64,000 bases of DNA from Sulfurovum sp. (lineage in GTDB: Bacteria > Campylobacterota > Campylobacteria > Campylobacterales > Sulfurovaceae): NCBI GenBank assembly GCA_026990595.1, contig JALXCZ010000011.1:106909-170908 (forward strand), read 5' to 3'. Shown piece by piece: positions 16,480 through 22,583 of the stretch. A program made the translations under genes and the position numbers. How positions within the stretch are numbered: position 1 is the stretch's first letter; every line of letters starts with the position of its first letter. The notes under the pieces were generated by a model, which worked only from the letters and a program-made list of their open reading frames with translations, was not told the origin of the DNA and did not search any database.

Positions 16480-17695
16480 TCTGTTCTCCTTCTATATAAA
16501 TATGTGCAACCTCTTTGGTGTGAATGATGCTCCAAAGGGCTATCTCTTCTTTGCTTTGCGGCAGGTCGGGCAGTGTAACTACTACAAGATCTGCCAGTCT
16601 TCCGGCTTCAATTCTACCACAATTCAAGCCAAGTATCTCTGCGGCATCTTGAGTAGAGGCTTTAATGAGTTGTGGGGCAAGTGTGTTGAGGGGTGCCTGA
16701 TGGTGCAGCATGAGTGCTGCTCTGAACTCATCAAAAATGCTGAGAGAGTCGTTGGAACTCAGCCCGTCTGTGGCTACAGAGTAGGGAAGATCCAGCTCTT
16801 TGAGTGTTTCTATAGCTAACCTTCCACAGCCCAGATAACGGTTACTTCGAGGACAGTGGGCAATGGAGTGCCCTTTGCTTTGCAAATAGGCTAACTCTTC
16901 CCGGGTTGCCTGTACGGCATGGGTAAAGTGTGCAGGGTAGGTGTCAAAGGCATGCATGAACTCTTCTATGTTTGTGACAGGGGTAGAGGCATTGAAATAT
17001 TTTTCAAAGAAGGCTTTGAACTCTCCTTCTCCTTTTTCTAGCCATTCATGCTCTGCCTGTGACTCCAGAAAATGGCTGCTCAGCGGCATACTGTGTTGTT
17101 TTGCAAGTGCCACTGCTTTTTGCAAAATGACAGGATGTACCGAGTAGGGCGAGTGTATGGCAACTGCCGCAGTGACTTTGCTCTTTTTGGGGCAACTTTG
17201 TGATGCTTTTACACGCTCCAAAAAGTCACCGTAAAGCATATCGGCATATTGGGCATTGGAGCCTATGAGCTCATTGAAAAAGACTACCCTTTGGGGAGTT
17301 TGTTCACAGACTTCAAGTTCTGTACCGAAACTGGAGATGGCACCAAATGTGGTAATGCCTGAGCGTAACATGTTGTCACACTCCTGTTGCATCATTGTGT
17401 TGTCACAAGATTGCATCAGTTCATCTCTGTTGGCAATGACCGAGTCCAGCCATGGCATAAAAGAGCCGTATTCCAAAGAGGTTCTGTTGGCTGAGAATTC
17501 CAGATGCACATGGGTGTTGATGAACCCGGGGTAGATAACAGAATGGGGAGCTGTTCTCACTACCTCTGCTTCAGGGTAGGTTTGAAGCAGGTTTTCCAGA
17601 GAGTCCACCGTTTTGATCGTCTCATCAAATGCTACTGCCTGGTATTCTACAAAGCCTTCAGGAGTATAGATATAGTCGGCTACAAGTATTTTCAT
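16472..17695 (-). CDS. Amidohydrolase, aminofutalosine deaminase-family
   Basis: 407 aa; GFINTHVHLEFS, IAHCPRSNRYLGCGRLAIE, VATDGLSSNDSLSIFDE; family used in the Campylobacterota futalosine pathway. Confidence 0.8.
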   Translation of the reverse strand: MKILVADYIYTPEGFVEYQAVAFDETIKTVDSLENLLQTYPEAEVVRTAPHSVIYPGFINTHVHLEFSANRTSLEYGSFMPWLDSVIANRDELMQSCDNTMMQQECDNMLRSGITTFGAISSFGTELEVCEQTPQRVVFFNELIGSNAQYADMLYGDFLERVKASQSCPKKSKVTAAVAIHSPYSVHPVILQKAVALAKQHSMPLSSHFLESQAEHEWLEKGEGEFKAFFEKYFNASTPVTNIEEFMHAFDTYPAHFTHAVQATREELAYLQSKGHSIAHCPRSNRYLGCGRLAIETLKELDLPYSVATDGLSSNDSLSIFDEFRAALMLHHQAPLNTLAPQLIKASTQDAAEILGLNCGRIEAGRLADLVVVTLPDLPQSKEEIALWSIIHTKEVAHIYIEGEQIA

Positions 17696-17748
17696 AGAGT
17701 TTTCCTTTGATTGCCCAGATTGAGTGTTGTGGTTACAGTTTGATACAT

Positions 17749-18234
17749 TTATTTAGGGATTCCTATAACATTTTCTTTAAAAATTGTTTTATATAAAATC
17801 GCACCGCCAAATGTTGAATTTGTTAAATTATTGTCATCAAATATTGCTGAGCCTAATGCTGATTCACTAAAATTACAGTTATCGATTATTGCATGGGAAA
17901 AATTGCCTTTCCAAATTCTTGCTTCAGTAAAATTCACATCCCGCAAGATGGCATTAACAAATGTAGCCCCCTTTATATTTGAGTTAACAAATAAGGCATG
18001 ACTTAAATCCGAATTGGAAAAATTTGCTTTATGTGCAATGGTGTTGGTAAAATTGACATGTGTCAAGTTTGCATCATTTAAATTCGACATGCTTAAGTCG
18101 AGACCTTTTAAATCTGCATAACTCAAATCACACATAGGACAGTCTCCGTCCTCCTTGAGTTTCTTTAGATCATTAATATCAAAGGCAAAAAGCAGATTTG
18201 AGCAGATCAGTACTGATAATATTATGTTTTTCAT
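17749..18234 (-). CDS. Pentapeptide-repeat secreted protein
   Basis: 161 aa; signal peptide and A(D/N)LxxxNF repeats. Confidence 0.88.
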   Translation of the reverse strand: MKNIILSVLICSNLLFAFDINDLKKLKEDGDCPMCDLSYADLKGLDLSMSNLNDANLTHVNFTNTIAHKANFSNSDLSHALFVNSNIKGATFVNAILRDVNFTEARIWKGNFSHAIIDNCNFSESALGSAIFDDNNLTNSTFGGAILYKTIFKENVIGIPK

Positions 18235-18611
18235 TTTAAAGCCTTCAGGTTTTGAAGAAAGATATCTGCTTTGCTTCCGCCAATAATTTTATTTTTTTCT
18301 TTTGCATTTTTATCGATAAAGAAAAAGGTAGGAATACCAATATAGTTAAATCCTTCCGGCAGCGTATCTTTTTGAATATCAAGGGTTAAAACAATAAAAT
18401 GTTTTTTTATATAGCTGACAACCTCTTTATTTTTAAAAACAACTTCTTTCATATAATTGCATTCAGGACACCATGTTGCAGAATACATCATCATCACTTC
18501 TTTATTTTGCGTTTTTGCTTTTTGTAATGCTTTGTTAAAATTGTGTTCAAATTGTAATTCACCAGCAAATAATGCTAATGTGCATGCAATGATCAATAGG
18601 AGTGATTTCAT
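18231..18611 (-). CDS. Thioredoxin-family protein
   Basis: 126 aa; YSATWCPECNYMKEVVF; cis-Pro IGIPTFFFID. Confidence 0.88.
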   Translation of the reverse strand: MKSLLLIIACTLALFAGELQFEHNFNKALQKAKTQNKEVMMMYSATWCPECNYMKEVVFKNKEVVSYIKKHFIVLTLDIQKDTLPEGFNYIGIPTFFFIDKNAKEKNKIIGGSKADIFLQNLKALK

Positions 18612-18765
18612 ATTTTACCCTTATGCTTTTTTGTTTTAAACGCTTGATTTTTTATATACCTATTTTATTCAAGGTACATTATAGGCACTATATACTTATA
18701 AATGGAACTTCTAAAGTGAAAAGAGAAAGTCTTATAAAGTGATGAGCAGATATGCGTTTTGTTAT

Positions 18766-19320
18766 CTACCTTATCTTGCTCAATATCTTAGCTGTATTCT
18801 TTGCACTTGTATCAACGCCGCCAAATATATTACATTCGGTAAGTTTCATTCCACAAAATTCTATAATTTGTTCTTTAAACATATTTTTTAACCGTCTATT
18901 TGCTCCTGTGAGCATATAAATAAAATGTGGAGCTCCGGTTGTTGTGAATATTTTTACAGTTTTACCTTGTAATAAACCTTTTGGTCTTGAATTAACATAT
19001 TTAAAGGCAAAGCCTTTAGATAAGTTCCAATCAAAAAAGTTTTTTAATATTGCCGGCATACTACCCCACCAATAGGGGAATACAAAAACTATCTCATCGG
19101 CATTTGAGATGCTGTTTTGATAATATTTCATCTCTTTTGTGACGACTAATTCATTGGCATTTTCATATGTAAAGAAAGGCTGTTGATTTTCATCTCTATA
19201 TAAATCCAGTATCTCAATCTTGAAGTTTTTTTTCTCTGAAATTTCTTTATATTTATTTGCCATTGCAAAAGAAAAACTGTTTTGTTTGGGATGTGCAACG
19301 ATGATTAAAATATTTTTCAT
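18766..19320 (-). CDS. NAD(P)H-dependent flavodoxin-fold oxidoreductase
   Basis: 184 aa; AHPKQNSFSFAMANKY, VFVFPYWWGSMPAILKNFFDWN. Confidence 0.88.
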   Translation of the reverse strand: MKNILIIVAHPKQNSFSFAMANKYKEISEKKNFKIEILDLYRDENQQPFFTYENANELVVTKEMKYYQNSISNADEIVFVFPYWWGSMPAILKNFFDWNLSKGFAFKYVNSRPKGLLQGKTVKIFTTTGAPHFIYMLTGANRRLKNMFKEQIIEFCGMKLTECNIFGGVDTSAKNTAKILSKIR

Positions 19321-19344
19321 TTTTATGTGTCCTTGTATGTTGTT

Positions 19345-19414
19345 AGAAAACGGCTGTCTTGAGAAATAGTTTTCCCGCTAGGGTAAACTATTGGTCTCCT
19401 CGTATTTGTTATAC
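19345..19414 (-). repeat. attC-like site 1
   Basis: Minus strand GTATAAC-AAATACGAGGAGACC-AATAGTTTACCC-TAGC-GGGAAAACTATT-TCTCAAGACAGCC-GTTTTCT; stop codon of ORF 19409 overlaps the TAAC core. Confidence 0.7.
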
Positions 19415-19726
19415 TTTAGTGACACTTTCATAGTAGTTTTGAACGGTAATCAATGGCTTTTCTTCTGATTTTATAGAGTCAATATATTCAAGCATCAATC
19501 GTGCAACATTTTGCACTCTATTTGGATGATAAATTTTCAAGTACTCAATCAAAGCAATGGCTCCATTTGTTCCTGTCATTCCGTAAGGAAATTCATTATT
19601 TAAAATTTTTTCAATATTCTTCTTAGTCCAATTTGCATTACTTGTATCCCCATCAATTTTAGGTTTATGTCCCATTGCAAATTCGTAATGAGATAACCAA
19701 AATTCACTTGTATAACCTCTTGGCAT
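19409..19726 (-). CDS. Hypothetical protein (cassette gene)
   Basis: 105 aa ORF, no family recognised; RBS AGAAGG upstream. Confidence 0.65.
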   Translation of the reverse strand: MPRGYTSEFWLSHYEFAMGHKPKIDGDTSNANWTKKNIEKILNNEFPYGMTGTNGAIALIEYLKIYHPNRVQNVARLMLEYIDSIKSEEKPLITVQNYYESVTKV

Positions 19727-19761
19727 AATTTAAATCCTTCTGTGTAGTATTTGTTAACATT

Positions 19762-21510
19762 TTATTGCAGTTTAGCCTTGAAGACATTTTGAATAAGTTC
19801 TTCTCTCTTTTCAAAGAATTCTTTAAAATTATTAAACTTTAAATCTATATCTTGAGGGATGTAATGTTTGTCACAATAGTCTTTCTGTTCTAATTTAGTT
19901 GCATAGGTATCTTTAAACCATATTTCAAATTCTGTATCTTGTTTTTCAATATTAGGAATAGCTTCTAAAAGCTGTAAATTACCAATATAATTTGTATAGT
20001 CTTGAAAGACTTTTATTTCCTCATCAGTTAGACCTTTTTTCTTAAGAACTGATTTTTTAAATAAGCTTTTTGGAAAAATATGATCAATATGAAACTTATT
20101 TCTAAAATCTAAAGTAGGATAAAGTAGAGATAATACGGAAAATGTAAATCCTTGTCCATATTTATAAAATGTAAGATTTTCTATATCTTCATCAGAAAAT
20201 ATTAATGTTTTATTTGTACCTTTAAATTTATCAATAATTTTAGCTAATGGAAACTCATCATTGATATCTTTTTGAATTAAGTCTCTAATTGGTCTTAATA
20301 CATTATCAGGTTGCCCACTAAAAGCTCTTTTTATCAGTGATAAAACAAGCCATTGTCTAATTTTTTTCTTATCTTCTAAATTTGAATTTGATGTAATAAA
20401 ACTATCTTTTACTTGCTTCTTATACAGATAATAAGCAATTGGTATTAAAGCATTATTTGAACTTAATGTTTCCCTATCATAGCCAAAACTACTCACTAGT
20501 TGGACTGCTAACTTTAATGCCTTAGTGATGCTTTCCCAATTATTTTCTATTGCTAACATATTGCTTTTATTGAAATTATCTACTTTGAAAGCAAAATCTT
20601 TAAAATCACTTAGAATAAGAGATGATTTTAGTATAAAGTCTTTATCAACATCAAAACCATTCCCAATGTTGTTTATTTCATCTACTATAGTTATAATTTC
20701 TTCTCTTGCATCTTTAGTTTCCCATTGTGCTGTTGCAATCGATAATAATAAATCTGAATAACTTAACTTTGTTCCTCCACTATTAATTCTAATAAAGATA
20801 TTTAAAACTTTATCTAATGACTGGCTTGCCTCTTTGTAGTAGCTCAAAATACCTTTTTCAATAATTACATTTCTTAGCTTAAATAATGTATTATTTGCAA
20901 ACTTTGCTTGTTCAGTATTATATTCAGTGAAAATTTCATTTGTTAACAGATAACTATTTACATCGCCTGGTTCTTCAAGTTTTAAAATATCTCCTACATA
21001 AAACCAAAAATGTGTTTCATCTTTTTCAGTAGATTCATTTTCTGTTAAAAAAGAAAAATCATACTCTAAATCATCAGATGATGATTTAGAAATTAAATTT
21101 ATATATAATTTCCTAGATGGGTAAGCATCTGGATTGTCGTATCTTTTTCGAGGTAATTTATATGCAAAACTACCTTTTAATGCTATGTATAATGAGGTTA
21201 ATCTTTGTTGACCATCCAAAATAGCAGTTATTTTATCATCCCCATTGATAGAAGCTTTAGGGTTATGTCTATTATTTCTTTCATTATAATTTCTGATAAA
21301 CTCATAAAATTCATAATTATTAACATTTTCTTTATCCACTTCCCAAAATAAAAATGAACTAATTGGGTAATCCCTCATCAAGCTGTCAAATAGTCTTTCT
21401 ATTTGATAAGTATCCCATACAAATTCCCTTTGAATCGTTGGAAGTAGATACTCTTTCTTATGAATTTTTTCAATAACATTTTTTATAGTTAAAGCTGTTT
21501 CGTATGACAT
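19762..21510 (-). CDS. DUF262 domain protein with C-terminal HNH motif (GmrSD-like, putative restriction/defence)
   Basis: 582 aa; ILDGQQRLTSLYIAL (DUF262), FHIDHIFPKSLF (HNH, DUF1524-like). Confidence 0.85.
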   Translation of the reverse strand: MSYETALTIKNVIEKIHKKEYLLPTIQREFVWDTYQIERLFDSLMRDYPISSFLFWEVDKENVNNYEFYEFIRNYNERNNRHNPKASINGDDKITAILDGQQRLTSLYIALKGSFAYKLPRKRYDNPDAYPSRKLYINLISKSSSDDLEYDFSFLTENESTEKDETHFWFYVGDILKLEEPGDVNSYLLTNEIFTEYNTEQAKFANNTLFKLRNVIIEKGILSYYKEASQSLDKVLNIFIRINSGGTKLSYSDLLLSIATAQWETKDAREEIITIVDEINNIGNGFDVDKDFILKSSLILSDFKDFAFKVDNFNKSNMLAIENNWESITKALKLAVQLVSSFGYDRETLSSNNALIPIAYYLYKKQVKDSFITSNSNLEDKKKIRQWLVLSLIKRAFSGQPDNVLRPIRDLIQKDINDEFPLAKIIDKFKGTNKTLIFSDEDIENLTFYKYGQGFTFSVLSLLYPTLDFRNKFHIDHIFPKSLFKKSVLKKKGLTDEEIKVFQDYTNYIGNLQLLEAIPNIEKQDTEFEIWFKDTYATKLEQKDYCDKHYIPQDIDLKFNNFKEFFEKREELIQNVFKAKLQ

Positions 21511-21524
21511 TTAGTTCCTTTGTA

Positions 21525-21594
21525 TGTTAACGACTGTCGTGAGCAATAATTTTCCCGCTAGGGTAAATTATTGGTCTCCTCGTTTTTGTTAGTG
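21525..21594 (-). repeat. attC-like site 2
   Basis: Minus strand CACTAAC-AAAAACGAGGAGACC-AATAATTTACCC-TAGC-GGGAAAATTATT-GCTCACGACAGTC-GTTAACA. Confidence 0.7.
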
Positions 21595-21628
21595 TTTTTG
21601 AACAATTCTAAGTTGTTTTTTCATTGAA

Positions 21629-21853
21629 CTAACTTATTTTATATAAATTATGATTATCAGTTCTAATAGTTAAATGAGTAATATTAGAAAAAAAGCCTTT
21701 TTCATAATTTTCTTTAAATTGTTTTCCAAAAGTTGTTGGCGTAATTGATTCCCAGATTGAATTAAATAAAATATTTAATTCATATTCCCCAGCGTTTGTA
21801 TTGTCTATAATACTTTGATATTGTTGAATTTGCTCATTAGTAAAATCTTCCAT
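21629..21853 (-). CDS. Hypothetical protein (cassette gene)
   Basis: 74 aa ORF, RBS AAGGA upstream, no family recognised. Confidence 0.5.
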   Translation of the reverse strand: MEDFTNEQIQQYQSIIDNTNAGEYELNILFNSIWESITPTTFGKQFKENYEKGFFSNITHLTIRTDNHNLYKIS

Positions 21854-22103
21854 TTATTTTGTCCTTATTTATTTGTACACTAACTATATTATTTAGAAGA
21901 ACACAATGCCCTGCTATTATGATATTTCAGTATTAAGAGTATATCAAATATGTCTTGATATTGGTGAAACTTGCTCGAATTTGCATGATTTCACATTCTT
22001 ATAGCTGTTTGATATAAGTCTGTAATGGTGGGTTATTGTATTTAGGGTCAGATTAAACCTATTTCGCTAAAATAATAGCCAAATATAACACACAAGGCAG
22101 AAA

Positions 22104-22583
22104 ATGAAAATAGTAGTAATCCAAGGTCCAAATTTGAATATGCTCGGAATTAGAGAGCAGAACATTTACGGACCAATGAAATTAGAAGATATTCACGCAC
22201 AGATGAAAGGTTTTGCAGAGCAAAACAAACTTGATATCGAGTTTTTTCAGAGTAACTTAGAAGGTGAGATTGTAGATCGTATTCAGGAATGTATCGGTGA
22301 TGCGGACGGTATCATCATCAACCCTGCGGCATATACACACACTTCTATTGCCATTAGAGATGCTATCGCAGCAGTACAGATACCTACGCTTGAAGTACAC
22401 CTAAGCAACATCCACCAAAGAGAAGAGTTCAGACACAAGTCACTGACTGCTCCTGTATGTGCAGGTCAGATCTTGGGTATGGGACCATTTGGTTACCACT
22501 TGGCAATGGTTGGTATGACACAGATCCTTTCTGAGATTTCGATGATGAAAGAACAACAGGCTAAAGCACAGCAAAAAGCGTAA
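22104..22583 (+). CDS. aroQ: 3-dehydroquinate dehydratase type II
   Basis: 159 aa; [40 protein letters not shown]. Confidence 0.96.

Follow-up and report, generated by a model that had tools for sequence, protein, structure and literature searches.

The stretch of DNA analysed here (the window, 64,000 nucleotides of a Sulfurovum sp. genome) carries, between an amidohydrolase gene (start at 17695, minus strand) and aroQ (start at 22104, plus strand), a probable integron-derived insert at approximately 17710-22058 on the minus strand. In the majority of genomes compared, the amidohydrolase gene and aroQ are divergent and adjacent with a short gap between them, and the flanks of the insert align with these empty sites at ...AAATAG on one side and at CAAAGGAAAACTCTATG on the other. 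The original prediction had placed a gene-cassette cluster at 18746-21884; the cluster does lie there, but these limits were too narrow, and because the two flanking genes adjoin in the empty-site genomes, the insert probably extends to about 17710.

As predicted, the four open reading frames of the cluster (74, 582, 105 and 184 aa) share one orientation, all on the minus strand, and TAAC-AAA(A/T)ACG stands 3' of every gene, sometimes in a shortened form. Cassette 1 (21531-21883, minus strand), delimited by its start box, cut as G/TTAGTG, and the R'' box of its attC site, encodes a 74-aa protein (21629-21853) with a match to DUF1413 (PF07205, E 1e-4) that lies below the family cut-off. Cassette 2 (19753-21530, minus strand), recognised by its boxes and by the domains of its product, carries a DUF262/GmrSD-HNH gene (19762-21510, 582 aa) and a truncated attC. 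The third cassette (19351-19745, minus strand) holds ORF105, an orphan frame at 19409-19726 with no match in Pfam, PADLOC or NCBIfam and no relatives in 397 genomes of the class. The fourth (18761-19350, minus strand), likewise bounded by boxes, encodes a flavodoxin-fold NAD(P)H oxidoreductase (18766-19320, 184 aa; PF02525, E 2e-37), none of whose relatives in the genus has an attC site nearby. Its end is marked by a truncated attC (AGATAACAAAACG..., 18751-18767, minus strand), and the attC covariance model described below detected no full site for this end in the window. A scan for sigma-70 promoters gave scores no higher than in shuffled sequence, and we therefore claim no promoter.

Beyond the four cassettes, genes for a thioredoxin-fold protein and a pentapeptide-repeat protein occupy 17749-18611 on the minus strand. 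The pair is missing from the empty site and occupies other genomic places in relatives, and in genome G084 a degenerate attC directly follows it (L113 2366-2434, 38.9 bits); from these three observations, we consider it probably an older cassette, belonging to an earlier platform. A reading of the thioredoxin gene as an ancient neighbour of aroQ was rejected, the pair being located elsewhere in relatives.

Along its whole chain, the 582-aa protein is homologous to BrxU (PDB 7p9k, E 5e-145), with the full-length GmrSD/BrxU architecture of GmrSD_N and GmrSD_C domains (PF03235, PF07510), and it matches PADLOC HEC-05 at 778 bits. It shares with BrxU (7p9k, 7p9m) homology along the whole chain and the DGQQR and HNH (HIDHIFPKS...N) motifs; unlike BrxU, it stands alone in a cassette outside any BREX island, and its activity is predicted. 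Judged by these similarities, the protein would be a type IV restriction enzyme, with a likely anti-phage role. Relatives at 35-51% identity were found in 14 of 299 genomes of the order, its own included, and in none of these 14 were they flanked by attC. Elsewhere in the same genome (contig C18, L131 7676-8602), a 308-aa protein beginning MSQAPKCFISYSHDNEAHKAW lies among attC sites and appears SEFIR/TIR-like by eye; it is possibly a further defence cassette.

Two attC sites were located in the window, site 1 (repeat at 19340-19411, attC at 19345-19414; 81.3 bits) and site 2 (repeat at 21520-21591, attC at 21525-21594; 81.0 bits), both on the minus strand. They are direct repeats of 70-72 bp, 86% identical to each other, and the remaining window matches to the same covariance model (R1) reach at most 17 bits. 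This model was built from 34 aligned sites of the same genome and related Sulfurovum-group genomes, the window pair included; since the two sites belong to its training set, their 81-bit scores are not independent evidence, which comes instead from the junction rule considered below. When each strand of each site was folded as single-stranded DNA, it scored better than all 200 shuffles. RNAalifold arranged the 34 aligned sites into two stacked helices, 9 of whose 13 base pairs show compensatory changes; in this alignment, 93.7% of cells were paired (74.0 +/- 1.5 in shuffles, at most 56% for slid structures) and the covariation score was 0.449, against 0.129 in shuffles and at most 0.133 for slid structures. 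The helices are bordered by terminal TAAC/GTTA boxes and an unpaired spacer, so that the fold contains R''/R' (NNNNAAC/GTTNNNN) and L''/L' boxes, unpaired spacers and a variable terminal loop. The L'' side carries the additional unpaired bases, as is expected for attC sites.

The model also detected 12 sites in five clusters of the same genome (five on contig C1, two on C11, which is the window contig, two each on C48 and C18, and one on C12) and sites in 50 of 78 Sulfurovum genomes. A sequence search with the 70-bp site itself returned more copies in its own genome and in 14 of 60 relatives. The checks named with the original prediction, in the form applied here, all came out in its favour: an attC model, here one of our own making, matches both sites, and across the 50 of 78 congeners the sites always separate different, unrelated genes lying in one orientation.

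An integron cassette opens with a GTT box, which in the array is part of the preceding site, and the R'' box of the same cassette is the reverse complement of this start. Scored over the four variable bases in 73 pairs of neighbouring sites separated by less than 3.5 kb, this rule held perfectly in 46, with a mean of 3.01 of 4 compared with 1.92 +/- 0.09 in 10,000 shuffles (maximum 2.26). Within the window, cassette 1 has GTTAGTG and CACTAAC, exact reverse complements (4 of 4), and cassette 2 has GTTAACA and TGTTAAC (4 of 4); in cassette 4 (GTTTTCT and AGATAAC), 3 of the 4 variable bases agree. The TGTTAAC of cassette 2 is preserved inside a scar at 19740-19759 (minus strand), where the R'' box of its attC (TGTTAACAAATAC) is fused to the start of cassette 3. 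A scar between the DUF262 gene and ORF105 had been noted before and is real; we amend its reading to the R'' end (TGTTAAC AAATAC) of a deleted or truncated attC. The R'' box of cassette 3, GTATAAC, predicts a lost start box GTTATAC, ending in the ATAC that is kept at the scar, and the sequence, AACAAATAC joined to TACACAGAAGG, would fit a deletion running from the ATAC in AAATAC to that in GTTATAC.

Several Sulfurovum arrays also contain, right at the GTT core of an attI or attC site, a GC-rich element that opens with a GTTG...CAAC palindrome (for example GTTGCACGCACCCGCGGAACGGGAGCGTGCAAC), as at L123 8395 (plus), L117 98 (minus), L138 4119 (minus) and L146 5200 (plus). It explains many of the exceptions to the junction rule and is perhaps a structured cassette lacking an open reading frame, or an insertion element that targets the core.

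The hairpins formed by the 70-bp repeats might also suggest a REP- or MITE-like element, a terminator or a riboswitch. An Rfam scan of the window matched no family, and such readings are extremely improbable: obedience to the junction rule already refutes them, and the sites are further linked to IntI and attI and show the R and L boxes, unpaired spacers and covariation described above. On this comparative evidence, we regard the two sites of about 70 bp as genuine attC sites, for which recombination of the folded bottom strand by IntI is predicted.

No tyrosine recombinase is encoded within 18.4-22.4 kb, in keeping with the original prediction, which had seen none in the window, and with at least two attC sites, no integrase nearby and the nearest IntI on another contig, its classification of the locus as an integron-type cassette cluster of the CALIN kind is upheld. 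The genome-wide search for IntI likewise found none at the array, but the genome does encode one, on contig C1. This protein scores 415.8 bits against a curated cut-off of 265, the only one in the genome above it; it is full length, aligns along VchIntIA (2a3v, E 2e-83) and retains the R..HxxR..H..Y residues. Tyrosine recombinases on contigs C47, C30, C26 and C8 were considered as IntI and rejected; they match the integron integrase model weakly, piecemeal and below the cut-off.

The integron on C1 adjoins rpiB, as in genome G065, and runs from intI to five attC sites. It is complete, in that intI stands beside attI and cassettes; the window locus lacks this arrangement. Its cassettes (L028 9547-12056) carry, by eye, mostly toxin-antitoxin-like genes (BrnT/BrnA-like, RelE/ParE-like), with an AAA-type ATPase in first position. 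The same genome has a second integrase-less array (C48, L029 9653-11190), in which a perfect attI core heads two attC sites; a divergent gene lies some 200 bp from the start of this array.

The 220 bp between the window array and aroQ had been described as non-coding. No intI was indeed found there, but the interval is not featureless, as its array-proximal 90 bp are an attI remnant (21882-21969, minus strand) that ends in the GTT core (21884-21882) joined to cassette 1. It was recognised by its similarity to the DNA that separates intI from the first cassette in the rpiB integron on C1 (78% over 90 bp; Smith-Waterman score 73, compared with 36 for the best of 60 shuffles against all regions), and it is nearer to this attI than to that of the integron at the aroQ locus of genome G012. 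Comparison with genomes G012, G099 and G060 indicates that the next 80 bp or so (21970-22051) are the place occupied by intI in these relatives; local alignment of 21970-22048 to seven intI regions was no better than shuffles. A second attI remnant (18664-18703, minus strand) lies between the downstream end of the array and the thioredoxin gene, at 17.1 bits to our attI model R2 (E 4.8e-4 over the window) and a Smith-Waterman score of 47 (best of shuffles 35). Taken from the sequence upstream of intI genes, the attI consensus reads TATAATGTTC(C/G)TTGAATAAATA followed by GTT, and matches to the model occur in 54 of 78 Sulfurovum genomes, exceeding the number with intI. Among 45 attI sites, which were picked by score and array linkage and do not give a frequency estimate, the upstream intI was full at 5, broken at 3, a fragment at 10 (three with less than 1 kb upstream) and absent at 27, with some stretches ending near a contig edge.

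At the window locus, attI is thus present as decayed remnants only. The rpiB-like character of the first, together with the second beyond the array, implies that the history of the locus is composite. The same two features, an rpiB-type attI at the head and an array flanked by two remnants, would be expected if a block of attI and cassettes had been copied or moved from the rpiB integron of this lineage, either through homologous recombination or in a rearrangement, and had come to lie beside an older decayed integron represented by remnant 2. We consider this improbable, as the two loci of the genome share no cassette or flanking DNA beyond attI and attC and the integrase remnants found at aroQ in relatives account for the locus without any transfer.

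These relatives form a graded series. G012 has an intact intI at the aroQ locus, ending 82 bp short of aroQ; with position and orientation unchanged, G099 retains intI codons 20-106 and 306-340, and G060 only codons 312-340, the last 29. The window locus shares a short GTTTAAT flank with G012 and G099, but this flank also occurs in G089, where intI is absent. Of 78 congeners, 23 encode an integron integrase or a substantial part of one, 20 of them above the cut-off. No close strain turned up with an intact integron at exactly the window array. In G036, sppA-amidohydrolase separates intI from aroQ (L120 18-980), so that integrons seem to be drawn to more than one position around aroQ. Bacteroidota MAGs (L219, L228) contain relatives of IntI with 51-53% identity to the Sulfurovum protein, possibly through transfer or a binning error.

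The attI relic within the 220 bp makes the array best seen as an integron that has lost intI and not as randomly dropped cassettes, and this reading is supported by G012, G099 and G060, which have intI, whole or fragmentary, at this locus. Because no intI residue is left in the window, we infer the loss from relatives. It is quite probable, in our judgement, that the locus is the remains of a sedentary chromosomal Sulfurovum integron whose integrase was lost. Alternatively, the rpiB IntI might have acted in trans to place cassettes in a non-attI, attG-type site at which no integrase ever stood. The genome does have an intact IntI, the empty site holds TAAATAGT, which resembles an attI core, and such insertions are documented as far as Loot et al. 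2024 is cited in later papers (PMC11023631, PMC12444791). However, about 90 bp of attI-region sequence at the head of the array would not come with an attG insertion, and intI or its fragments stand at this very locus in the three relatives, so that we give this alternative a low probability.

Under integrase loss, IntI would once have joined circular cassettes at attI by recombination of folded single-stranded attC hairpins, resulting in a row of the 74-aa frame, the BrxU-like restriction gene, ORF105 and the oxidoreductase. The local integrase gene would then have been lost, leaving attI with two intact and two truncated attC sites, that is, a CALIN. The row may now be fixed cargo, expressed from a promoter left in or before attI or within the cassettes, and the complete IntI of the rpiB locus could still act in trans on the two intact attC sites. 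We infer this order of events, as well as the trans activity, cassette expression and phage defence. An extension of the idea, in which Sulfurovum would have a distributed integron of many attI-headed, integrase-less satellite arrays around the chromosome whose cassettes a single surviving IntI inserts and removes in trans, is rather unlikely; if true, loss of local intI copies would be tolerated or favoured.

Following the IntegronFinder work of Cury et al. in 2016, a CALIN is said to be a cluster of attC sites lacking an integron-integrase. The window array resembles one in its two intact attC sites on one strand, its several promoter-poor genes and the absence of a nearby integrase, but differs in having an attI remnant at its head and a second one behind. 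IntegronFinder does not detect attI outside class 1 (PMC9024848), and attI relics in CALINs are therefore normally overlooked. With the sedentary chromosomal integrons of Vibrio and Xanthomonas, those of Sulfurovum share a fixed place in the chromosome at which intI, attI and a cassette array lie together, but they belong to the Campylobacterota and differ in their short arrays at several loci per genome and in their attI and attC sequences. A parallel in decay is offered by Xanthomonas lineages that lost intI, in which integrase inactivation is followed by persisting CALINs (PMC12444791, where attG insertion is also cited).

That integron cassettes might be unrecognised in this lineage, as the original prediction had tentatively raised, does not hold. 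Campylobacterota are among the integron-bearing phyla (PMC8618304), and Table 1 of PMC10295459 has entries for In0 and CALIN elements in Sulfurimonas autotrophica and for CALINs in Sulfurovum NBC37-1. The present locus agrees with these reports in phylum and genera and in the In0 and CALIN elements listed; unlike our series, the table entries come without analysis of attI, attC family or decay. Campylobacterota integrons, CALINs and defence cassettes were thus known before, and what is new is the Sulfurovum attI and the graded decay series. Integron-borne phage defence, in particular, has reportedly already been published.

The origin of CALINs is debated among integrase loss, off-target insertion and rearrangement. 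A single locus that across species is empty, complete, partly decayed, or integrase-free with a recognisable attI gives direct support to the loss route. An attI consensus for the lineage would permit CALINs to be sorted by origin, which current finders do not do. The array also adds solo BrxU-like defence genes to the integron cargo of a non-model phylum. In a vent-type Sulfurovum host, the locus shows the stepwise death of an integron, with its cargo left behind.
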